64,000 nucleotides of DNA from assembly GCF_022394535.1 (NCBI RefSeq), contig NZ_CP089414.1, positions 806,001-870,000 of the forward strand. The letters are read 5' to 3'. The position numbers and the translations under genes are program-made. Below are positions 15,803 through 24,352 of this stretch, in pieces; positions within the stretch are counted from its first letter, which is position 1; every line of letters starts with the position of its first letter. The notes beneath the pieces were generated by a model that made no database searches, was not told where the DNA came from, and was given only the letters and a program-made list of their open reading frames with translations. The stretch is from Dyella terrae. Lineage in GTDB: Bacteria > Pseudomonadota > Gammaproteobacteria > Xanthomonadales > Rhodanobacteraceae.

Positions 15803-15922
15803 TTAACGGACAAACGACAGAATTAAGAGGACTGCGACAGACAGAATTAAGAGGACTGCGACAGCCATGCCAGCCATCAAGAATTTCGCATAATGTATAT
15901 CTTTGGTCTGCCGCTCAGCCAT
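15803..15922 (-). CDS. Left-junction ORF carrying the displaced start of the mini-element Xer-factor gene
   Basis: A 39-codon frame. Its first nine codons (MAERQTKDI) belong to the mini-element; it then runs through the dif core (HYAK) into flanking DNA, giving FLMAGMAVAVLLILS and a second VAVLLILS. The repeat is encoded by the 24-bp tandem duplication. It is most simply a by-product of integration: on an excised circle the same ATG would read into the 16661-17416 gene instead. Whether the hydrophobic junction peptide is made is unknown. Confidence 0.3.
   Translation of the reverse strand: MAERQTKDIHYAKFLMAGMAVAVLLILSVAVLLILSFVR
15817..15864. repeat. 24-bp direct tandem repeat, two copies
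   Basis: Two exact adjacent copies of a 24-bp unit beginning ACAGAATTAAGAGG, immediately left of the first dif-like site. In the minus-strand junction ORF they encode an eight-residue repeat. Confidence 0.9.
15883..15910 (+). other. dif-like site A (attL of the mini-element)
   Basis: XerC arm ATTTCGCATAA, central TGTATA, then TCTTTGGTCTG in place of a XerD arm. The XerC arm and centre match the bacterial dif consensus (CGCATAA-TGTATA-TTATGT), while the right arm is degenerate. This is the pattern of a junction between host dif and an element that supplied a poor XerD arm. Confidence 0.85.
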
Positions 15923-15984
15923 TTTCCGCCCCCGACGTGATGTCATTATGGGAGCGGTTATCTAGGGCGGCAAACTGTTCATTA

Positions 15985-16218
15985 TCAGACCCGATTTTGA
16001 AGGGGGGTCTGCTCGGCATTCCAGCGACCGATTATCTCGGCGTAGTCGCCCCGCGTTATGTCATCTCCGGCGAGCTTGCGGGAGATCTCCAACATCCAGG
16101 CGCCGACCATGGCGGCCCCATCCAAGGGGCGAGCCGCACGGGCGTTGTAGTAAGCCCCGAGGGCCATCCGGATAGCGTGATCGGCGGTAAAGCTGGCGTG
16201 CTTCCTCATCTTGCGCAT
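15985..16218 (-). CDS. Hypothetical 77-residue protein of the mini-element
   Basis: Small helical protein (HAIRMALGAYYNARAARPLDGAAMVGAWMLEISRKLAGDD). AAGGA lies 8 nt before the ATG, supporting translation. It is last in the three-gene minus-strand set of the mini-element. No family recognised. Confidence 0.5.
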   Translation of the reverse strand: MRKMRKHASFTADHAIRMALGAYYNARAARPLDGAAMVGAWMLEISRKLAGDDITRGDYAEIIGRWNAEQTPLQNRV

Positions 16219-16316
16219 GCGATCATTCCTTGGGGCTCAAGCCCCGGTTGCTGTTGCAATCGCGGCACCCGGTCAGGCCTTCGAAACGTGGCCGGGTGTC
16301 GCACCTCAATCAGGCG

Positions 16317-16661
16317 TCAGAGTTTCCCGTGACACCGCTTGTATTTCTCACCGCTGCCGCACGGGCACGGCTGATTGGCCCCGACCCGGGGCACGGACAA
16401 CACAGAGCGCTGCTGCGCCTTCTCCATCTCCCTACGAACTTCCTCCGCCCGCGCATTTTGCGCCGGCTCAGCCAGGGCATCGGGCGGCGAAGCCGCTTCC
16501 CGTTGCCCTGGCCGTACCGGCGCAATCCCACGCCTCGCGTCCAGGTAGTCACGCAGGGCGATGAGGCAGAGCGCATTGAGGGACACACCAACCCGAGATG
16601 CGTAGTCGTCGGCATCGGCCTTGAGGGCCTCAGGGAGGCGGAGAGTCGTAGAAGCAGCCAT
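16317..16661 (-). CDS. Ribbon-helix-helix-like protein with C-terminal SEC-C zinc motif
   Basis: A 114-residue protein. Residues ~3-45 ([36 protein letters not shown]) resemble an Arc/HicB-like ribbon-helix-helix DNA-binding fold. The last ~22 residues ([17 protein letters not shown]) are a textbook SEC-C zinc motif with all Cys/His ligands. The linker is encoded by the large hairpin shared with the phage. The start overlaps the upstream stop as TGATG. A role in regulating the element is likely; the SEC-C part may bind a partner protein. Confidence 0.72.
16471..16512. other. Imperfect 42-nt hairpin with an apex shared with the prophage
   Basis: GCCAGGGCA pairs with TGCCCTGGC (9 bp). After a T-T mismatch come CGGG/CCCG and an apex CGGC-GAA-GCCG. 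The 15 nt GGCGGCGAAGCCGCT at 16483-16497 is identical to the apex of the larger hairpin in zot (18433-18447), in the same orientation. Candidate packaging or strand-initiation signal. Confidence 0.7.
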
Positions 16662-17416
16662 CAGCTTTCTCCAGGAAAGGTCTTTTGGCCCCTGTTAGCG
16701 TCTGGGCCTAAGGCATGGCTTATCCCCGATCCAGCCGGGGAAAAGTCACCAATCTGATGGTAATGTGATAGCAGATTGCTATCAATAGTAGAGGGCTGGC
16801 CTTGCACCAACGCCGGAAACTGCGCGGCCAGGATAGCGGGATCAGCGAGAAAAACACCAGCATTGGCCAGTGCCGGCAATGCCAAAGCTGCCGCCGCGAC
16901 CACCGAGGGATCGATGGACGCAGCGGCAACCGGCAGGAGGAAAAGAGCGGTGGCCGGAGGAGGGGTCTCGGCCACAGGATCGGCCGTAGCGAGTGCGGTG
17001 CAGGATAGGCTTTCGCCGGTAGGATGCTGCACGGCTGCACCTGGGGACGCTCCTTGCAGTCGCTCGACGGCGGACCGCCGCCGGAAGTCGTCCCGCCAGA
17101 AACGGGCCTGCTCACAAAGGATCGGCCACACCTCAAGCTTGCCCGGCTGGAAGCTGTAACCGTTGGGGCTGACCAGCTCCGCAGTCCGCTCGTTGAGCAC
17201 CCAGCCCGCCCAGGCGTCGTGTAGCGCACCGATGTCACCACGGCGACGCAGCCGGAGCAGCCGAACCACGGACCACGGGACCCGATTGCGACCCGCATCC
17301 CAATGACGGACCGTCCGGACGCTCACGCCAAGCAACTTGGCGCAGGCCTCACGACTCAGAAAGCAGCTGTGGCGAAGGGCCCGGAAACCCTCGGCAGAGA
17401 CGTACCAGGGGCGCAC
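16661..17416 (-). CDS. Predicted Xer recombination activation factor (XafT/VC1465-like), start displaced by integration
   Basis: The N-terminal part has a helix-turn-helix ([29 protein letters not shown]), then [10 protein letters not shown] and [28 protein letters not shown]. This is the layout I associate with the VC1465-type Xer activation factors of TLC-phage-like elements and the phage DUF3653 family. The C-terminal ~120 residues are Ala/Pro-rich. In the integrated state the only usual start is the GTG at 17416. On the circle the frame extends upstream through the attachment site (IHYAKSEKPRKRRP) to the ATG at 15922, adding 22 residues. It probably acts with XerC/XerD at dif. The family call rests on remembered motifs. 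Confidence 0.65.
16682..16708. other. Candidate nick-site hairpin of the mini-element
   Basis: CTTTTGGCCCCTGTTAG (16682-16698) is identical to 22955-22971 in the phage Rep gene. GGCCC (16687-16691) pairs with GGGCC (16704-16708), leaving CTGTTAG at the start of the loop in both. Both copies encode NRGQK in their host genes. This is typical of a rolling-circle double-strand origin, although function is inferred. Confidence 0.65.
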
Positions 17417-17442
17417 CGGGCGACGCTTACGAGGCTTCTCCG

Positions 17443-17470
17443 ACTTCGCATAATGTATATTATGTAAAAT
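17443..17470 (+). other. dif site B (complete XerC and XerD arms)
   Basis: ACTTCGCATAA - TGTATA - TTATGTAAAAT: a full 28-bp dif with two good arms, very close to the canonical gammaproteobacterial dif. It is both the right end of the mini-element and the left end of the prophage. Alone it would be a working chromosome-dimer resolution site. Confidence 0.9.
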
Positions 17471-17542
17471 TCTTGATGCGCCTACGCCGCCTTGGCAAGC
17501 GCCTTGCTTCTCGCATGATCCCGGTCATGCAAGAAGCAGCGA

Positions 17543-18028
17543 ATGCGGTTTAACTGGACGTTCGACGCGCACAAGCAGGCACTTTCTGCCCCCAGCGGCT
17601 GGACAGTGACCGTCCGCGAAATCGCCACGTGGCTACAAGACCGCGTGTATTGCCGACACGATCTAACCGGGCCATGGGCTGGCTGGCGAATACGCGGTAA
17701 ATGGCTCACCGGTCCGAAGGGCCAGCGCTGGACACCTTCCGCGCTTCTGATGGCGTCGCCAAATGAATGTCACAGCGAGCAAACTCACCCGGACGAGCAC
17801 CGCCCATTTGAGCGTCCGGAAAACCCGTCGCGTGAACCCACAGGACGCCATCCTTGCAATACGTCCACCAGCACGCACTATGAGCAGCCTGACACGCACG
17901 ATACTCCGCATAAGCCCGTTGACCGGCCTGTTGCTCAGCCTGCTGCGCACGCACCCGAGCCAAGACAGGAGCCAAGGGCCCGAGCGAAGGTGGTACAGCT
18001 GGCCGACTATCGGCGGCAGGCTCCCTAA
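17543..18028 (+). CDS. DUF3653-type phage regulator, possible Xer activation factor
   Basis: A 161-residue protein. The first ~75 residues (SGWTVTVREIATWLQDRVYCRHDLTGPWAGWRIRGKWLTGPKGQRWTP) match the phage DUF3653 pattern, related to the Xer-factor-like gene of the mini-element. The middle is Pro/His-rich, and the end RAKVVQLADYRRQ is conserved in the scar copy (RAQVIDLGDYRQQ), which supports the full plus-strand reading. It starts 73 bp after dif B. On the excised circle the repressor gene would end 11 nt inside it, making one operon across attP. The 3' half overlaps a minus-strand ORF. Confidence 0.65.
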   Translation: MRFNWTFDAHKQALSAPSGWTVTVREIATWLQDRVYCRHDLTGPWAGWRIRGKWLTGPKGQRWTPSALLMASPNECHSEQTHPDEHRPFERPENPSREPTGRHPCNTSTSTHYEQPDTHDTPHKPVDRPVAQPAAHAPEPRQEPRARAKVVQLADYRRQAP

Positions 18029-18122
18029 TATCCCGATCCGGATACCAAGCCCGGTAAGCAGCGAAACCCATTCCCACGGCCACGAGCGTGAGCACGCTCA
18101 ACACAACGTCCACTTGTCGCAT
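17706..18122 (-). CDS. Small membrane-anchored phage protein, antisense to the DUF3653 gene
   Basis: A 138-residue ORF with one N-terminal transmembrane segment (VVLSVLTLVAVGMGFAAYRAW), a charged Gln/Ala-rich helix and a C-terminal domain with cysteines (CWWTYCKDGVLWVHA, CDIHLATPSEARKVSSA). AGGGG lies before the ATG. It follows zot on the same strand. A homologue in the scar (24122-24472) keeps MRxxDV, GVLxxHA and the IHLATPxEARxVSSAxPSD end. About 323 nt are read on both strands. Function unknown; an envelope or assembly role is possible. Confidence 0.6.
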   Translation of the reverse strand: MRQVDVVLSVLTLVAVGMGFAAYRAWYPDRDIREPAADSRPAVPPSLGPLAPVLARVRAQQAEQQAGQRAYAEYRACQAAHSACWWTYCKDGVLWVHATGFPDAQMGGARPGEFARCDIHLATPSEARKVSSAGPSDR

Positions 18123-18135
18123 GGCTATCCCCTGT

Positions 18136-18177
18136 CCTGTAAGAACAGGGTAGCAAAAGCGGGTTTGGCGGGAGGGT
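18136..18177. other. Hairpin plus conserved block shared with the scar
   Basis: CCTGT-AAGA-ACAGG forms a tight hairpin (18136-18149). From CAGGG at 18146 onward, 32 nt (18146-18177) are identical to 24496-24527. The block lies between the membrane ORF and zot and is non-coding. A regulatory, terminator or replication role is possible. Confidence 0.6.
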
Positions 18178-18272
18178 GATCGAACCTCGATCGAGAAACC
18201 GTTAAACCTGCCCGATTTGTCCGATGAATTCCTCGAGCAAGGCGTCACCGGACGTGCGTCCAGCAGAAGCGG

Positions 18273-19460
18273 TTAACGACCCGCTTTGTTGGCACCGCCA
18301 AACGGATCAGAGTTCCAAGCGTGATACTCGGGAGGCGTGTACGAAGTAGCCGTCTGACGCTCGGCGTGCGGTAGCTGCGAGGACGCCACGTCCCCCGCCA
18401 TCATCCCGCCAGGGAGCGGGGCTCGCCCGTCAGGCGGCGAAGCCGCTGTCTGACGGGGCGAGCCCCTGGACTGACTGTCCGACGGCGAATAGGACTGATC
18501 GGCGCCCACAGCCGCCACAAACGGGTTGTAGATGCCCTCGCGCGCGACAGTGCGGCACATATTGGCCTCGACCTCGTAATGCGTACCCTGCTCCGTCAGG
18601 CACGTGCAGCGGCCGTCATCGACCGCAATGCAGAACAAGCGCGGCTCGGACTTCACAGTCTGCGTATCGAAAGCCGGCGCGGTCCAAGGCACCCCGGCAA
18701 CACGCGGCTTCATCCACTTCACGTAATCCGACTGCCTCAGCGCGACGTCCTGGGCAGCGACAGCATCGGCCGAAGAGCCTCCCGCAACAACAGGCTTCAC
18801 GGGCTCGGTGTGCTTGTGGATGCGGTACGGAATAATGATCGCGAGCGCGACGGCAGTTAGAACCAACGCACCTCCGATATACACGATGCGAGGCGTTTTC
18901 ACCTTCATCGTATGGAGCGAACTCGACTTGTAAAGCTCAAAGACCTCTTTGGGCAGCGGCGCGAACGACATTTCGGCCACTTTCTTCTCGCGACGAGAGT
19001 CCGGATCGTCAATGCAACGCATCCAGGAGAACGTCTGCCGAACGCCCTTGGCACGCATCACCGAATGCACGTGGCTATCCACCAAGCGACGCACGTAGGC
19101 ACTCATATTGGCCGGGTGCTGTGTAGTCAACAGGAAGTCCATACCGTAGTGGCGGACCTTGGTAATGCGCTGCACCCACTCAGATGGACGTCCATTGTCT
19201 TTCGGCATCAGACAGATGGTGCCGGGGTGCGAACCGTCCTCCTGGCACTCGTCCAGGCAGATGATGGAGCCTGCCGGAAGCTCCCACCACTTGTGCAACA
19301 TTTCCTCAGTAAGAGTAATCGCAAGGCCTTCCTTCAGCCCGTTGATGCCGTACTGGAAAATAGGCCGCCCGGGCTCTTTTTCGAGCAGCTCGGTAATGCG
19401 CTTCACCAGCGACGCGGTCTTGCCTGAGCCAGGAAGACCCGTAAACAATGAAACCGGCAT
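18273..19460 (-). CDS. zot: Zot-domain phage assembly ATPase (pI-like)
   Basis: Inner-membrane assembly motor that extrudes filamentous virions, 395 residues. The N-terminus VSLFTGLPGSGKTASLVKR has the Walker A motif at ~8-15, and IICLDECQEDG is the Walker B region. QHPANMSAYVRRLVDSHVHSVM is typical of Zot. One transmembrane helix (VYIGGALVLTAVALAIII, ~195-215) separates the cytoplasmic ATPase from a periplasmic tail with several cysteines (FCIAVDDGRCTC). The low-complexity C-terminus encodes the large hairpin at 18418-18466. It starts 10 bp after the DUF2523 gene ends. Confidence 0.93.
   Translation of the reverse strand: MPVSLFTGLPGSGKTASLVKRITELLEKEPGRPIFQYGINGLKEGLAITLTEEMLHKWWELPAGSIICLDECQEDGSHPGTICLMPKDNGRPSEWVQRITKVRHYGMDFLLTTQHPANMSAYVRRLVDSHVHSVMRAKGVRQTFSWMRCIDDPDSRREKKVAEMSFAPLPKEVFELYKSSSLHTMKVKTPRIVYIGGALVLTAVALAIIIPYRIHKHTEPVKPVVAGGSSADAVAAQDVALRQSDYVKWMKPRVAGVPWTAPAFDTQTVKSEPRLFCIAVDDGRCTCLTEQGTHYEVEANMCRTVAREGIYNPFVAAVGADQSYSPSDSQSRGSPRQTAASPPDGRAPLPGGMMAGDVASSQLPHAERQTATSYTPPEYHAWNSDPFGGANKAGR
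18418..18466. other. Very long near-perfect hairpin inside zot
   Basis: GGGGCTCGCCCGTCAG (18418-18433) pairs with 18450-18466 with one bulged G. Inside it GCGGC-GAA-GCCGC forms the apex. That gives about 21 bp of stem in 49 nt with only TGT unpaired. The apex GGCGGCGAAGCCGCT recurs in the mini-element. On single-stranded phage DNA this would fold strongly. Candidate packaging signal or strand-synthesis start. Confidence 0.75.
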
Positions 19461-19470
19461 ACCCTATCCC

Positions 19471-19764
19471 CTACTTCGTCTTGCCAGTATTGGCGGTCAA
19501 CCGGACCTTTGCCGCATCCGTGATCTTGCGACCAGCCCAGGCGCTCAAAACAATGGTGATGCACTGATCGATACGAAGAATCGCCACCCAGCCCAACAAC
19601 GGACCAGCGGCACCCATCATCGAACGAATGCTTGAGCTATCGATGATCGCCGATACGCCCGCGTTAGCCGCAAATCCTATGCCCACAGAGACCAACGCCG
19701 TGATCGCGAGTTGACCGACCACCGACAACAACATTTCACCAATCCATGCGACGAGTGCAGGCAT
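19471..19764 (-). CDS. DUF2523 minor coat protein (pVI-like)
   Basis: A 97-residue hydrophobic protein with several membrane segments (MLLSVVGQLAITALVSVGIGFAANAG; LLGWVAILRIDQCITIVLSAWAGRK). It lies between the pIII-like gene and zot, the fixed place of DUF2523/pVI analogues at the virion end. Its ATG overlaps the upstream stop (TAATG), so it is translationally coupled. Confidence 0.85.
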   Translation of the reverse strand: MPALVAWIGEMLLSVVGQLAITALVSVGIGFAANAGVSAIIDSSSIRSMMGAAGPLLGWVAILRIDQCITIVLSAWAGRKITDAAKVRLTANTGKTK

Positions 19765-21167
19765 TACTGATTACTCCCCGCCGTGATGCACGCCGCAGCG
19801 AACAGCGCGAACGCCACCAAGCCATAGCCGAAGTACGTGAGAACGTCGCAACCGATGGAAAATTTCACAAGAAACGGAACGGATGACAGCGACATGTCCT
19901 GTAACGGGCAAGTACGCGCGTAGCCAAAACCACTCTGATCGTACGTGCCAGAATTCGCTTGGCCGCCCACCGTGCCGTTCTGCGACGTGTCTGGCTGCAC
20001 CCAGACGGCGCTCTGCCCGTACTTCGTGCTATCACTCGCAAACGTGGGAGGGCCATTGCCATCGCCCGCAACGGCTTTGTACAGCGCATCCGAACTCGTC
20101 TTGGCGGAACACATCGAATACCACTGCTGACGAACAATGCCGCAGTTCACCGCGTCACCAGAGCACGCCGGCGGCGTGTTGCAATCCTGACCGCCGTTGA
20201 CGCTTCCGCCGTTACCGCCCGCGCTACTCGAGGGAGCCGGCCCAATGTCACCGGTCTTCTGACCACTAGAAACCGTGCCACCCGCACCGGCATACACGTT
20301 CACCGTCTGATTGGCGTTAGCACCGGTAGTTGGGTCGGCCATCGTATAGTTGTCACTGCCCTTAATAGCGGTGGCAGGATCAGCCACCACGTTAGGCGGG
20401 GGCGACGGCGCGGGATTGCCCATACACAAGGAACCGTCGCCCATCACAGCGCAATTACCGCCCTGCTGCCCGGGCGACGTAGGACCCTTAATACAGACCT
20501 GAGCACCGTTCACGAGAGCACACGCATCACCCGTGTTCGGGTTATAGCAACTGACACCGCCGCAAATCTGTGGCGCCGCTGAAGACGCCACTGACGAAGC
20601 AGACGCAGGAAGCGGCGGAGGCGGCGGAACAACCGGGTTGCCATTGGCATCCGCTACCTGACCCGCTGTCAACGGCTGACCGTCCGCGCTGGCACCGACA
20701 GGGGCAAGGTTAATAAAAGTGAACCACTCACCGCTGCTATTAGCCATAGGCGGAGTCGTCGGACTCAACGCCATACGACACATCACCGTCTTGCCGCTCG
20801 AAGGATCAACGACAGCCTGATCCGTCTGGTACGAGTTGAGAATCTTCCCTGGCCTCCATTGGTTCGCGTGCGGTGCGTTAGCTTGGCAGACGTTCGGTGT
20901 TGGTGGCCCAGCACAGTACGAAAAAGTTGCACCAACGTTGGTCACGTTCGGAACAAAATATTCCAAAACAGCGCCGGTTCCATTCGTCTGAGGGCCTGGG
21001 TCGTAGCAGCCCAGCGAGGGAGAACCAACAATATCGGCCTGACAAGCGGACATCGCCGCACCCCGCGTCATGCACGAGTCAGCGAGACATGGCATAGCGA
21101 CCGACGCAAGCGCGAGCGAGAACACGCAAAAAATCAGTCGTCGGACGACGGCGCGAAAAGTATCCAC
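19764..21167 (-). CDS. pIII-like adsorption/minor coat protein
   Basis: Predicted receptor-binding tip protein, 467 residues from the GTG at 21167. The signal peptide is RLIFCVFSLALASVAMPCLA. The body is rich in Cys, Pro, Gly and Asn, with low-complexity linkers (VVPPPPPLPASAS; SSSAGGNGGSVNGG), as in pIII linkers. The C-terminal membrane helix (VLTYFGYGLVAFALFAAACI) anchors it to the particle and inner membrane. Position between coat and DUF2523 genes fits. The sequence itself is too variable to name a receptor. Confidence 0.8.
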   Translation of the reverse strand: MDTFRAVVRRLIFCVFSLALASVAMPCLADSCMTRGAAMSACQADIVGSPSLGCYDPGPQTNGTGAVLEYFVPNVTNVGATFSYCAGPPTPNVCQANAPHANQWRPGKILNSYQTDQAVVDPSSGKTVMCRMALSPTTPPMANSSGEWFTFINLAPVGASADGQPLTAGQVADANGNPVVPPPPPLPASASSVASSAAPQICGGVSCYNPNTGDACALVNGAQVCIKGPTSPGQQGGNCAVMGDGSLCMGNPAPSPPPNVVADPATAIKGSDNYTMADPTTGANANQTVNVYAGAGGTVSSGQKTGDIGPAPSSSAGGNGGSVNGGQDCNTPPACSGDAVNCGIVRQQWYSMCSAKTSSDALYKAVAGDGNGPPTFASDSTKYGQSAVWVQPDTSQNGTVGGQANSGTYDQSGFGYARTCPLQDMSLSSVPFLVKFSIGCDVLTYFGYGLVAFALFAAACITAGSNQ

Positions 21168-21214
21168 CCAGCCCCCAGTAGCGCAACAATCACGTAGTAA
21201 CCAGAAATGTCCAC
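21134..21214 (-). CDS. 26-residue membrane protein, possible pVII/pIX-like minor coat protein
   Basis: Tiny GTG-started ORF reading MDISGYYVIVALLGAGWIL then FAPSSDD. An ideal GGAGG lies 4 nt upstream. It sits between the major coat and pIII-like genes and overlaps the start of the latter by 34 nt in another frame. Length and a single hydrophobic helix match the tiny end-cap coat proteins of filamentous phages. No homology claim is made. Confidence 0.6.
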   Translation of the reverse strand: MDISGYYVIVALLGAGWILFAPSSDD

Positions 21215-21266
21215 GACGCCTCCGAAAAGGCATGCGGGGCATTGCACCCCGCACACCGAAACCGCG

Positions 21267-21488
21267 TTAGACGCGGAGGTACGACACCAGCTTCTTGCCG
21301 TACACGATGGTCAGCACGGCCACCGCGATAAGGCCCACGTCAGTGGCGTACGTCGCCAGCGTGCCGGTAATCGTCGTGGTCGGATCAGCAGAAGCATCCG
21401 CCATCGCAAAGCCAGACATCAGCAGGCCACCGGCCGCCACAGCCACCTTCTCCGCGCCAAAGCGGACATTCTTCACGAACTTCAACAT
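21267..21488 (-). CDS. Major coat protein (pVIII-like)
   Basis: A 73-residue precursor. The N-terminus MLKFVKNVRFGAEKVAVAAG, continuing to FAMADA, is a leader peptide. The mature part would be ~43 residues: a short acidic/polar start, one membrane helix (VGLIAVAVLTIVYGKK) and a basic C-terminus. This is the classical organisation of inovirus major coat proteins. The ATG at 21488 has GGAGG 8 nt upstream, and the longer frame to 21503 is not needed. Confidence 0.88.
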   Translation of the reverse strand: MLKFVKNVRFGAEKVAVAAGGLLMSGFAMADASADPTTTITGTLATYATDVGLIAVAVLTIVYGKKLVSYLRV

Positions 21489-21489
21489 G

Positions 21490-21690
21490 TCAATTTCCTC
21501 CACCCTGCCGGAGAGCTCTGGACATATAGGCCGCGCACCAGCAGGTCAGAATTGCGAAGCCTATAGGAGCCCCATCACCGAGGCTCAAACTTGGGAGGAA
21601 CGACGGCGCTTCTACCCACTGCGTTTGCGTGCACGTCACGCCATCAGTGTCGAATTGCACGCAAGACAGATAAACGCTCTGCACCGTCAT
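21490..21690 (-). CDS. Small phage membrane protein between pV and the major coat gene
   Basis: A 66-residue protein with one hydrophobic helix (IGFAILTCWCAAYMSRAL) and an N-terminal part with spaced cysteines (YLSCVQF, VTCTQTQW). AAGGGGGG abuts the ATG. Similar ORFs occupy this position in Xanthomonas-type filamentous phages. Probably a minor coat or assembly protein. Confidence 0.65.
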   Translation of the reverse strand: MTVQSVYLSCVQFDTDGVTCTQTQWVEAPSFLPSLSLGDGAPIGFAILTCWCAAYMSRALRQGGGN

Positions 21691-21701
21691 CCCCCCTTAA
21701 A

Positions 21702-21989
21702 TCACGCCGCTTTCGGAGCGACCGCGCCGGTCGGCTTCACCATCACCAACTTCAGATAACGGGACAGCTCCAAATCCCCGAAACGACCGAGGGAGAACGA
21801 CTCCGGAGAGACGTCGTAAGCGCCCACCGAATAGACGGGGCCAGAACCGAGGCCGACACGGAACGGAAGTTCATAGCCGTCGCCGAGATCGAGCGCAGCG
21901 CGCTGTTCGCGAATGATCTGCGGCTTGCCATCTTTGCCATTGAAGGTGCGCTCATGGACGTTCGTGTCCTTCACATTGATACGGGGCAT
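21702..21989 (-). CDS. Single-stranded DNA-binding protein (pV-like)
   Basis: A 95-residue protein (MPRINVKDTNVHERTFNGKDGKPQIIREQRAALDLGDGYELPFRV) with the length and beta-rich character of DUF1293-type inovirus ssDNA-binding proteins. These coat newly made viral strands before assembly. It directly follows Rep and its start lies 19 nt inside the Rep 3' end. The ATG at 21989 is chosen over the longer open frame. Confidence 0.8.
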   Translation of the reverse strand: MPRINVKDTNVHERTFNGKDGKPQIIREQRAALDLGDGYELPFRVGLGSGPVYSVGAYDVSPESFSLGRFGDLELSRYLKLVMVKPTGAVAPKAA

Positions 21990-23050
21990 AGTTGTTGCCT
22001 CACGAGTTGATTGAGTTGATCGGCGGCACCAATAGACTTCCAACGCGAAGGCCGCCCTTCCCGCGTCACGTTTTTATCGACGTACTCCCAGGCGTCCTCT
22101 CCCAGCGCGTCACGAATAACGCGAAGAGACGGACCAACCTGAGTGCGCAACCACTTCACCATCGCGTTAGCGGTGGCCTCGACTTTGGCCTTCACCACGA
22201 GCAACTTGTTCGTCGCATCAGTCAGGCCGATACGCTCGCAAAGGTCAGCGAGGTATTCATACGCGCCGCGAAAAAACCGCAACGGATGCAGCAGGATGTC
22301 CAGGGGAACACCGCGACTTGGAAGTTCACCGAACTCGTTTTCTTTCCCGAAGTGCTTCGCGTAGAACCGCACCTCAAAGCGCACCCATGGCGAGGTTTCA
22401 TCCTTCAGCTGCTTGCCTTTCTCATAGCCGCAAAATTGCTTGTGATTGCGACTACCGACATAGACAGAGCAGCCGGTGCCATGGCCGTGATCATCCTCGA
22501 AACGTGTCTTGGGCGGCCTTCCCTGCCCGGCGAATGCGCCGGAGCGCGCGGCGTCATTCAACTGGTGAATACCCACAGCGACGCCAGCGAAATCATCAAC
22601 CGCAACGTCGCAATGCGTGATACGCGCGCAAAGAATTTCAAGCTGAAAATGCACATGCGACCAGTTCTGCACCCAATGGCAACCCGTGCCCGTGAGCTCG
22701 ACCTGCATCGTGTCGTTATTGCCGCCGAAACAAATTCGGCCAGCCAGTTCGCCTTCACGATCAAGGATCACGCAGTAGTTGTCGTAGAACTGGAACTTAC
22801 GGCCGGTAGGCCGCATGACCTTCAACATCGCAGAGCCACCGAAAATGAAATCGGCAACCTGCGTGAGGTCAGTAACAGAGCATTCTTCGAGACGGGCCAG
22901 GGGAAAGGTGGCCGTGAGCCAGTCGATTCCGACAGCGAAGCCGGTCACCCTACCCTTTTGGCCCCTGTTAGTTCCCGGGCCCTTTTCACTCGCTACACTT
23001 TCGCGCGCCCGGACCGAGGGAAAGTCGAAAGCTTCTTCAGGGCGGCGCAT
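21971..23050 (-). CDS. Rolling-circle replication initiator (Rep, pII-like)
   Basis: A 359-residue initiator of the phage/plasmid replication-initiation-factor (Rep_trans) type that would nick the plus strand and start rolling-circle replication. Motifs: VTGFAVGIDWLTATFP, CARITHCDVAVDDFAGV, GCSVYVGSRNHKQFCGYEKGKQL and PWVRFEVRFY. The ATG at 23050 overlaps the previous tiny ORF stop (TGATG), so a longer start is unlikely. The candidate nick hairpin (22955-22981) lies in its 5' part. The protein ends 19 nt inside the pV-like gene. Confidence 0.88.
   Translation of the reverse strand: MRRPEEAFDFPSVRARESVASEKGPGTNRGQKGRVTGFAVGIDWLTATFPLARLEECSVTDLTQVADFIFGGSAMLKVMRPTGRKFQFYDNYCVILDREGELAGRICFGGNNDTMQVELTGTGCHWVQNWSHVHFQLEILCARITHCDVAVDDFAGVAVGIHQLNDAARSGAFAGQGRPPKTRFEDDHGHGTGCSVYVGSRNHKQFCGYEKGKQLKDETSPWVRFEVRFYAKHFGKENEFGELPSRGVPLDILLHPLRFFRGAYEYLADLCERIGLTDATNKLLVVKAKVEATANAMVKWLRTQVGPSLRVIRDALGEDAWEYVDKNVTREGRPSRWKSIGAADQLNQLVRQQLCPVSM
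22955..22981. other. Candidate plus-strand origin hairpin inside rep
   Basis: CTTTTGGCCCCTGTTAG followed by TTCCCGGGCC: GGCCC (22960-22964) pairs with GGGCC (22977-22981) around a loop starting CTGTTAG. The 17-nt left part is identical to 16682-16698 in the mini-element. Its place inside the initiator gene is plausible for a rolling-circle origin; this is inference. Confidence 0.65.
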
Positions 23051-23160
23051 CAGCCGACCCACCTTGCAGCGACGCAAGCGATCACCACGCCCACGAAGAA
23101 CCAGAAATACTGGCGCGACACGACACGCCAGAAGAAATCCGAGACACCAGCGCGCGTCAC
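23050..23160 (-). CDS. Tiny membrane protein (36 aa) coupled to rep
   Basis: GTG-started ORF (TRAGVSDFFWRVVSRQY, then FWFFVGVVIACVAARWVG) with one membrane helix. Its GTG overlaps the previous stop as GTGA, and its stop overlaps the Rep ATG as TGATG. Missed by length cut-offs. Function unknown. Confidence 0.55.
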   Translation of the reverse strand: MTRAGVSDFFWRVVSRQYFWFFVGVVIACVAARWVG

Positions 23161-23267
23161 AGGGACACCCCCAGCGCGTGAAAGCCCCAACGCACAGCGG
23201 CGCGCATCAACATCGCGACCGCGATCCAGAAGAACAGCACGCAAACGTGCGACGTCAGCCGGCTCAC
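23157..23267 (-). CDS. Tiny membrane protein (36 aa)
   Basis: GTG-started ORF (SRLTSHVCVLFFWIAVAMLM, then RAAVRWGFHALGVSL) with one hydrophobic helix. Coupled by GTGA overlaps at both ends. Function unknown. Confidence 0.55.
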   Translation of the reverse strand: MSRLTSHVCVLFFWIAVAMLMRAAVRWGFHALGVSL

Positions 23268-23434
23268 AGCTGCACGCCCTGCTTGGCGCACTGATCACGC
23301 AGCGCGACGAAGCCGATGCACATCTTTTCGGTCCACAAGAATTCCTGCTTGGACTGCTCACAGAGCTTGAGCAAGCCTTCAGCCTGCTCGGCACTGAGGG
23401 TGAGGACCACGTCGGCTTGCAGGATGCGGTTCAC
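23264..23434 (-). CDS. Small soluble phage protein (56 aa)
   Basis: GTG-started ORF (NRILQADVVLTLSAEQAEGL; CEQSKQEFLWTEKMCIGFVA; LRDQCAKQGVQL), helical, with three cysteines. Linked by GTGA overlaps at both ends to its neighbours. Could be a regulatory or adaptor protein of the early region. Confidence 0.6.
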   Translation of the reverse strand: MNRILQADVVLTLSAEQAEGLLKLCEQSKQEFLWTEKMCIGFVALRDQCAKQGVQL

Positions 23435-23550
23435 GCCGTCACCCCGCTCAGAGTGGCCGCCTGACGGGCGGCGAGATCGCGAAGGGATCGAACGAGGTAG
23501 CCGACCCAGAAGGCCGCTACAGCAACACAGGCGTAGCCCAGAACGTCCAT
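23431..23550 (-). CDS. First tiny ORF of the phage early operon (39 aa, membrane)
   Basis: ATG-started ORF (MDVLGYACVAVAAFWVGYLV, then RSLRDLAARQAATLSGVTA) with one N-terminal helix. AAGGGG lies 5 nt upstream. It is the first gene after the operator region, so translation of the whole early operon can enter here. Its stop overlaps the next GTG. Confidence 0.6.
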   Translation of the reverse strand: MDVLGYACVAVAAFWVGYLVRSLRDLAARQAATLSGVTA

Positions 23551-23569
23551 TTGTGCCCCTTCAACGAAT

Positions 23570-23634
23570 ATAGAGACTCTCTACAATGAGGCGTAGTAGA
23601 GTCCCTCTACAGGGTGAATGTAAAGGGCCTCTAC
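23570..23634. promoter_or_regulatory. Three phased repressor operators between early operon and repressor
   Basis: Three copies of the inverted repeat GTAGAG-N3-CTCTAC: 23570-23584 (first base A), 23596-23610 (perfect) and 23620-23634 (one mismatch, GTAAAG). Centres are 26 and 24 bp apart, near two and a half turns of the helix. The third ends one base before the repressor ATG and the first lies 20 bp before the early-operon ATG. The layout indicates control of both divergent transcripts by the repressor. Confidence 0.8.
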
Positions 23635-23635
23635 A

Positions 23636-24352
23636 ATGAATAGTTCCAATCAGTTGCTCGGTATCTATCGACAACGCCTATCGCTAAAAACGAATCAGGC
23701 CATCGCTGACAAGCTGGGCGTGAAACAGCCCACGGTAAGCATGTGGTTGAACGAGAAGTCGCACCCCAACGCCGAAGCCATTGCAGACATGTGCAAGGCG
23801 ACGGGCGAGTCATTAGCGAAATGGTTGCCGCTGATCGAATCGGAGCGATGCCGCACCGACGCAGACAAAAAGGTCTGGCTTCGACTTGCTCAAATGGCTG
23901 CGGCGATCACGCTGACAGTGGGCGTCTTTGGCCCCCACTCCACCGCTCGCGCAGAGGCCGGCAATTTCGCGAAATCAGCCGACTCTGTATATTATGTAAA
24001 ATCGCGTATGGACCTGCTTTGCGCCCCGAGCGTCTGGGCCGTCACCGTTCGCGAAATCGCACCCACCATAGATACGACCTCACCGGCCCTTGGGCCGGAT
24101 GGCGTGTACGTGGCAAATGGCTCACTGATCCGAAGGGCTGGCGCTGGACACCCGGCGAGCTTCTTCGGGTGTCGCGAGATGAATCTCGCATCGCCCAGCG
24201 TCCGGAAAATGATTCATCGCCTCAACTGGCTTTACCCCTACGTCCGCATGCCAATAAAGAACGCCATTGCGGCACTCAACCTGTTGAACCAGTGCAGGAT
24301 GCGGACCGTGCCTCAGAGGCGGAGTACACGCCACGGCGACGGGCACAGGTAA
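23636..24352 (+). CDS. Phage repressor (Cro/CI-type HTH), 3' end altered by integration
   Basis: The N-terminal ~65 residues are a helix-turn-helix (TNQAIADKLGVKQPTVSMWLNEKSHPNAEAIADMCKATGE). A hydrophobic segment (LRLAQMAAAITLTVGVFG) follows. The phage-encoded part ends at the dif core (SVYYVK, to 24002). In the prophage the frame runs on ~115 codons into scar DNA, ending at 24352. On the circle it would instead continue from 17471 as FLMRLRRLGKRLASRMIP to a TAA at 17551-17553, giving exactly 150 codons. It probably binds the three operators just upstream and holds the early operon silent. Confidence 0.78.
   Translation: MNSSNQLLGIYRQRLSLKTNQAIADKLGVKQPTVSMWLNEKSHPNAEAIADMCKATGESLAKWLPLIESERCRTDADKKVWLRLAQMAAAITLTVGVFGPHSTARAEAGNFAKSADSVYYVKSRMDLLCAPSVWAVTVREIAPTIDTTSPALGPDGVYVANGSLIRRAGAGHPASFFGCREMNLASPSVRKMIHRLNWLYPYVRMPIKNAIAALNLLNQCRMRTVPQRRSTRHGDGHR
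23975..24002 (+). other. dif-like site C (attR of the prophage)
   Basis: TCAGCCGACTC - TGTATA - TTATGTAAAAT. The XerD arm and centre are identical to site B; the XerC arm is unrecognisable. So the phage attP had a poor XerC arm and a good XerD arm, the type described for TLC-phage-like, XerD-first integration. Confidence 0.85.

Follow-up and report, generated by a model that had tools for sequence, protein, structure and literature searches.

A 1.56-kb dif-bounded element in Dyella terrae with features of a Rep-less inovirus satellite

The locus and its genes

Within a 64,000-nucleotide stretch of the Dyella terrae genome (contig NZ_CP089414.1, positions 806,001 to 870,000; hereafter, the window) lies a small element bounded by dif half-sites, which we consider a probable satellite of inoviruses without a replication initiator (Rep) or capsid genes of its own. 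The source genome measures 5,355,565 bp, and the host belongs to the family Rhodanobacteraceae. Two dif-bounded units are enclosed in the window: the element, and a 6.5-kb inovirus prophage (17460..23991) that encodes a Rep of the Rep_trans type, a helix-destabilising protein, and Zot. An earlier note on this DNA had placed a 1.57-kb mini-element here; a dif-bounded unit is indeed present, and measures 1,560 bp from TGTATA to TGTATA (15900..17459).

The sites bounding the two units were identified by sequence pattern, all on the plus strand. The left half-dif (15885..15900) retains the XerC arm and TGTATA, while its XerD arm is replaced by unrelated sequence. A full dif (17445..17470) forms the border common to element and inovirus, and a right half-dif with the XerD arm (23986..24002) closes the inovirus. 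The element is thus inserted exactly at dif and has a dif-like attP, as integrative mobile elements exploiting Xer (IMEX) do. The GC skew switches sign near 17 kb of the window, as expected of the terminus. A single full dif was present in 17 of 20 genomes of the same genus, that of the window included, and none in the other 3; in one of these genomes (G057; our handles for genomes begin with G, those for loci with L), the dif is empty and its left flank resembles that of the window (81% over 147 bp).

Three ORFs of the element, all on the minus strand, were scanned for protein families. The largest (16661..17416) encodes a 251-aa helix-turn-helix (HTH) protein that matched the NCBIfam model of the VC1465 family Xer recombination activation factor (NF040522; 77.2 bits, cut-off 70) and the Pfam family DUF3653 (PF12375). 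As VC1465 is XafT, this protein is, by family membership, a putative XafT-like Xer activation factor. In PHROGs, relatives of the protein are annotated as “tail assembly protein” (phrog_1668, 7.6e-12), which we take to be a mislabel because Pfam and NCBIfam point to an HTH/DUF3653 and Xer activation protein. The second ORF (16317..16661) encodes a 114-aa protein with, in profile searches, a ribbon-helix-helix (RHH)/Arc-like N-terminus and a SEC-C motif at the C-terminus; it probably binds DNA and regulates the element or its helper. Neither of these two proteins had been named in the earlier note. The third (15985..16218; 77 aa) belongs to no family and shows a short, weak resemblance to the third ORFs of related elements, a likeness too weak to claim kinship. 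None of these three ORFs matched a Rep, coat, or Zot family, so that the earlier claim that the element lacks all three holds for them, the other, mostly antisense, ORFs lying outside the scan.

The genes of the element appear to be kept, as dN/dS was 0.19–0.42 across 12 usable comparisons, several of them with dS above 1; four pairwise comparisons among homologs of the 114-aa protein gave 0.25–0.35.

A nick-type hairpin common to the element and to phage rep genes

The element and the inovirus share two strings, both found where the earlier note had reported them. The first, the 17-mer CTTTTGGCCCCTGTTAG, is identical at 16682–16698 in the element and 22955–22971 in the phage. At up to 2 mismatches it has exactly two matches in the genome, against one for the reversed-pattern control; for the 16-mer at 3 mismatches, at least two matches arose in 2 of 100 shuffles of the 64 kb. 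The 17-mer makes up one arm and the loop of a hairpin of the form GGCCC-N6-TAACA-N-GGGCC (16687..16708, minus strand), whose counterpart in the phage (22960..22981, minus strand) sits at the 5′ end of rep (21971..22948, minus strand; PF02486). Upstream of it, a second small hairpin (CTTTTCCCCG...CGGGGATAAG; 16719..16745, minus strand) takes the place of the TTTTCCCCGG..GAAAAG box of the phages.

This hairpin form, with a stem on either side of a 12-base loop containing TAACA or TAATA, recurs at rep. The Rep proteins of the window phage and of the phages in G046 and G070 are 62–68% identical, and the 16-mer of the motif is unchanged at the 5′ end of all three rep genes, that of G070 being interrupted by one stop. 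Each of the 13 rep loci examined in the family has the hairpin at the 5′ end of the gene (of 14 loci with the three copies in G109 counted once, the second G046 locus was left out), as do all three phage records opened (Cf2, SMA6, and SMA9), out of 33 rep matches among phage records. Across 398 genomes of the order, the pattern GGCCC-N4-AGTAAYAC-GGGCC occurred at 14 places in 13 genomes, and its reversed control nowhere. Twelve of these places were at phage rep genes, and two (G453 and G498) were at XafT-like genes where the remainder of rep is missing. Two one-mismatch matches to the motif, in G114 and G171, lay in 20-kb stretches where neither rep nor a XafT-like gene was present, and were taken as chance. 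The 14-mer TTGGCCCCTGTTAG was found in 68 stretches of viral contigs. In G109 (L245), tandem inovirus copies carry identical origin hairpins about 7.1 kb apart.

Base pairing was compared in 25 phage loci, all at the 5′ end of a homolog of the window rep, and 9 element loci, which together hold 26 distinct 26-mers. Sixteen of the phage loci came from rep genes and 9 from the pattern scan; in the latter, the hairpin is present by construction and the finding is its location at rep. Stem pairs 3, 4, 5, and 7 were Watson-Crick in all 26 sequences and pair 6 in 25, while the outer pairs 1 and 2 were so in 15 and 17. Changes on both sides of the stem were seen at pair 3 (GC, CG, and AT) and pair 4 (GC, CG, and TA), and the bases flanking TAAYA also paired in 26 of 26, as CG, GC, or TA. 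The rows of this comparison are related rather than independent, and each represents the best stem within a short stretch. In folding, the nick region of the element forms two hairpins (z −1.5), with 20 of 200 shuffles as good, and that of the window phage folds poorly (z 0.68).

The 17-nt string could instead be a shared regulatory or coding motif, forming an mRNA hairpin or encoding a conserved peptide (P..N.G). It lies just upstream of the next gene, and both the phage Rep and the element protein are translated through the hairpin in one frame, which fits such a motif. The two-sided changes in the stem (pairs 3 and 4) and beside the loop argue for an origin, as does a parallel in CTXphi, whose initiator RstA is of the Rep_trans type. 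RstA is described as nicking within a hairpin loop of ori(+) (PMC4439123). Weighing both sides, we regard a shared motif as very unlikely. The earlier note had named conservation of coding alone among the outcomes that would undo its reading; base-pair covariation answers this, with the hairpin nonetheless still read in one frame on both sides. The shared frame suggests that in-frame recombination transferred the hairpin to the element from a rep 5′ end, though a protein motif would also fit. Taken together, the location at rep 5′ ends, the compensatory stem changes, and the 9 element loci with group-matched sequence strongly support the earlier view of this hairpin as the putative nick site, or origin, of Rep.

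A second hairpin resembling a packaging signal

The second string, the 15-mer GGCGGCGAAGCCGCT, is identical at 16483–16497 (element) and 18433–18447 (phage). Alone it is weaker, with three matches at up to 2 mismatches compared to a shuffle mean of 0.62 and a largest value of 2. It gains weight from its position at the apex of the hairpin that came out as most stable, on window folding, in each of the two units. In the element, this hairpin (16458..16525, minus strand; −35.2 kcal/mol as DNA, z −7.6) has an apex common to phages, and in the phage it lies in the 3′ part of zot (hairpin 18418..18466, z −6.8; gene 18273..19460, PF05707; both minus strand). Both contain an asymmetric 3-base bulge; a simple stem search missed them for this reason, and window folding was used instead.

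With the Ff phages as a model, the form of the strongest hairpin makes it a plausible packaging signal. When the hairpins of 7 elements were compared with those of 14 phages (the stretch from the window phage being shorter than the others), the best scores were well above the 95% level of shuffles for the window element (30 versus 18), G202 (33 versus 20), and G152 (29 versus 21). Exact strings at this hairpin reached 22 nt between the window element and G070 and 23 nt between G152 and G155. The packaging hairpin proposed in the earlier note thus has a clear match in 3 of 7 elements. The remaining four tell against such a role: the scores were marginal in L252 (19.5 versus 18.5) and L253 (21 versus 19), and neither G145 nor G169 had a match above shuffles. 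Moreover, the shuffles used do not preserve palindromes, and the G202 hairpin best fits G070, which belongs to another phage group than that matched by its nick hairpin. The same order and orientation of the two signals relative to dif, noted earlier, holds for the element and phage of the window but is not general, as the strongest hairpin precedes the nick site in G152, G202, G145, and G169 and follows it in the window, L252, and L253.

A family of elements matched to phage groups

Including the window, nine Rep-less loci carried the nick hairpin: the window, G169, G202, G145, G152, L251/L252 (identical and counted as one), L253, G453, and G498. The search for similar elements flanked by dif half-sites, which the earlier note had suggested, thus yielded 9 hairpin loci, with half-dif at both ends in five of them (window, G169, G202, G145, and L252). 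G152 and L253 showed a half-dif at one end, while an exact pattern search returned neither end in G453 and G498. Elements with both ends known span 1,466–1,743 bp; a 2,097-bp element in G108 lay outside this set. In all nine elements whose attP was inspected (G152 at one end only), the XerC arm and TGTATA are intact and the other arm is replaced, which places these sites in the class of the TLCphi attP.

Elements and phages were matched by exact strings, searching both strands of 23 phage stretches. The longest strings at the nick hairpin were 21 nt (window element and G070), 20 nt (G145 and G071), and 19 nt (G169 and the window phage), followed by 16 nt each for G202 with G106 and G152 with G155. 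As triplet-shuffled elements (20 shuffles for each of 4 elements) reach 13–20 nt, strings of 16 nt are within chance by themselves, and it is their position inside the hairpin that counts. On both signals, the best of the 23 phages for the window element was G070, with 22 and 21 nt compared to 15 and 17 nt for the neighboring inovirus. G070 is a phage of another genus, with the stop in its rep frame noted above; the earlier proposal of a satellite of the adjacent inovirus in particular is not established.

The element L252, called Xanthomonas-type here after a neighboring prophage that is 99% identical to XacF1, has 39 nt in common with G320 and 38 nt with G492; blastn of its hairpin stretch against phage records returned SMA6, SMA9, and Cf2 (93% over 29 bases, E 0.1). 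In G492 (L284) itself, an inovirus is present as a tandem pair at a spacing of 6.9 kb, and both copies carry the origin hairpin of this element. Hairpin type does not track protein similarity: the 114-aa protein of the window is nearer to that of G152 (60%) than to that of G169 (50%), yet its hairpin is of the G169 type.

Homologs of the 114-aa protein extend beyond these loci, with 111 matching proteins, itself included. The metagenomic homologs lie on contigs with a median length of 1.6 kb, versus 3.5 kb for the chromosomal control, a single protein represented by the best 120 of its 3,294 matches. With the longest contig required to be at least 1.3 kb, 42 of 74 homologs fell at or below 2.1 kb, against 17 of 99 for the control. 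Such short contigs would fit free 1.5-kb circles, but equally assemblies broken at repeats. An alignment of the RHH proteins retrieved four loci in viral contigs, three of them with dif, and six in genome contigs, three of which are Rhodanobacter elements of this family. The other loci, in two Burkholderiales metagenome-assembled genomes (MAGs) and one Dadabacteria MAG, had neither dif nor TAACA hairpin by the patterns used; both Burkholderiales loci contain a GGGCTTGTC..AACAAC stretch, as in G136-type elements.

A further group of relatives, of 2.3–2.5 kb (G084, G098, G150, and G180), has half-dif on both sides, the XafT-like gene first, and no visible capsid gene, and differs from the window element in encoding an HUH-type Rep, with the Pfam match (REP_ORF2-G2P) obtained on G084 and the other three judged by eye. 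At the dif elements L156, L157, L159, and L163, likewise of 2.3–2.5 kb with a XafT-like gene and an HUH Rep, no capsid gene was seen. Such elements are possible Rep-bearing satellites.

Several repeats were observed beside these features. Beyond the right half-dif of the inovirus lies a diverged repeat (77–85%) of one inovirus end (17655–17777/24071–24193 and 18118–18177/24468–24527), which looks like a remnant of a second, older prophage. Just left of the left half-dif is a perfect 24-bp tandem duplication (15816–15863). The string CCCGCCAAACCCGCTTT occurs at 18156 and 24506 of the window (minus strand), at L083, L289, L206, and other inovirus loci, and in the G136 element, which makes it a third string common to that element and several phages.

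Evidence against a satellite, and a possible stranded cassette

A number of observations weigh against the elements being satellites. Circles, single strands, or particles of the window element were not seen. Among 233 genomes of the family set, Zot was present in 4 of the 50 with XafT-like matches (at E up to 1e-3) and in 26 overall, and thus not enriched, and of the five hairpin elements in this set, only that of the window has a rep of the window type in the same genome. Four SEC-C elements (in G136, G134, G050, and G041; L112, L114, L115, and L116) have no good TAACA-type hairpin, an RHH gene neighboring the hairpin was not found in G498, and one stem pair is broken in L253. Outside both signals, the G152 element (L109) has two more long strings in common with phages, one of 21 nt (G153) and one of 26 nt (G155), at ~9664 and ~9711.

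In L112, L114, L115, and L116, a GGGCTTGTC + AACAA motif replaces the TAACA hairpin, as it does in L258 and L259, and in the former four the AACAA motif follows a strong hairpin.

The lack of enriched co-residence with inoviruses and the broken pair in L253, together with interrupted frames at several XafT-like loci, would fit a domesticated or stranded dif cassette: a former satellite whose remnant was kept for a host-side role of its two genes, with the hairpins as leftovers. We find this unlikely, given that pairing of the hairpin is intact in 8 of 9 element loci, that hairpins match phage groups, and that dN/dS is well below 1. Near-identical tandem copies also argue against a remnant: G169 holds two, identical over 1,485 bp but for one N, and G134, a SEC-C relative without clear hairpin, two of 1,848 bp that differ at fewer than 4 of 1,865 positions.

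Comparison with known satellites

The closest parallel to the proposed satellite is TLCphi, a satellite phage of Vibrio cholerae with XafT, which is larger than 1.56 kb. Like TLCphi, the element has no morphogenesis genes (among the three ORFs scanned, and with the PHROGs tail label discounted), integrates at dif in the manner of XerCD substrates, and encodes a predicted Xer activation factor of the VC1465 family, its NF040522 score being above the cut-off. The attP also agrees, with the XerC arm and center intact and the XerD arm degenerate (PMC4246890). TLCphi carries an autonomous replication module (PMC4246890). In contrast, no Rep family was found in the three ORFs of the element, and its putative origin is of helper type; on this feature, the element falls outside the TLCphi-like phages as judged by its sequence.

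RS1, a satellite of the inovirus CTXphi, occurs alongside its helper within dif arrays. It is described as being in essence the replication region RS2 and as encoding an anti-repressor (PMC4439123). The element differs from RS1 in that no Rep_trans family was matched in its three scanned ORFs; RstB and the anti-repressor were not searched by name. An autonomous plasmid is reportedly the inovirus satellite of Schmid 2024 and, judged by title alone, differs in replicating autonomously. Begomovirus DNA satellites belong to eukaryotic plant viruses and offer an analogy only.

Ff miniphages and phagemids retain an origin and a packaging signal, and are replicated and packaged in trans. The element could be a natural miniphage, that is, a deletion derivative of an inovirus in which the origin and a packaging-like hairpin were retained. 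There is a weak DUF3653-like stretch in the window phage (PF12375, 0.0034), partial matches of this kind occur in the XacF1-like phage, and L252 includes a stretch of 77 bases that is 73–76% identical to phiSHP2 and SMA7. Unlike a miniphage, the element carries genes and an integration system of its own. Besides the two signals, the window element has no exact string above 15 nt in common with 23 phages, and none of 50,697 phage records matched the whole XafT-like protein in tblastn at 1e-5, with weak HTH matches at E up to 10; against plasmids, there was one weak match. Neither comparison revealed an internal deletion of a helper genome, and this origin of the element is hardly credible.

An element that bears both cis signals of the phage, together with a putative DNA-binding regulator, might also act as an anti-inovirus decoy, titrating phage Rep and packaging proteins and spreading only vertically or by Xer. 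PADLOC matches of the 114-aa protein (the best at 6.2e-06), which span the SEC-C end only, lend this some color. The mobility features of TLCphi class speak for a satellite, with whose spread a decoy effect would be compatible rather than exclusive, and we consider a pure decoy quite improbable.

Proposed life cycle and significance

We therefore favor, as the probable explanation, an inovirus satellite on the TLCphi plan, without Rep or capsid genes, copied by the Rep of a helper and packaged in trans. Its visible components are the dif-flanked unit, the attP of TLCphi class, the XafT-family gene, the nick hairpin, and the packaging-like hairpin. In this model, the XafT-like protein would activate XerD, and the host XerCD would integrate and excise a 1.56-kb circle at dif, with a TTCGCATAA-TGTATA-TCTTTGG junction in the excised form. 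In the presence of an active inovirus with a matching origin, the phage Rep would nick the element hairpin and drive rolling-circle replication, and the resulting single strand, marked by the other hairpin, would be coated and exported by the phage assembly proteins; encapsidation in trans is inferred. Phages of the window/G046/G070 origin group are the likeliest helpers, and the one in action need not be the neighbor. The interpretation offered in the earlier note is thus partly supported.

Beyond the window, we lean towards a wider reading, in which satellites of about 1.5–1.75 kb are widespread in Rhodanobacteraceae, a Xanthomonas-type host, and relatives, having discarded Rep, moving by means of a Xer activation factor of their own, and repeatedly swapping a captured origin hairpin to fit the local inovirus Rep. 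To our knowledge, few inovirus satellites are known, and the two compared here from text, RS1 and TLCphi, carry their own replication module. In the open-licence literature, searched by title or abstract, we found no description of such elements and no paper on Rep-origin pairing or the packaging hairpin of Xanthomonas-type inoviruses. If our explanation is true, a satellite that makes do with two or three genes and no Rep would come close to the minimum for a mobile element, and would provide a testable readout of Rep-origin pairing and of the packaging hairpin in these phages. Small dif cassettes that escape annotation may likewise be active phage parasites.

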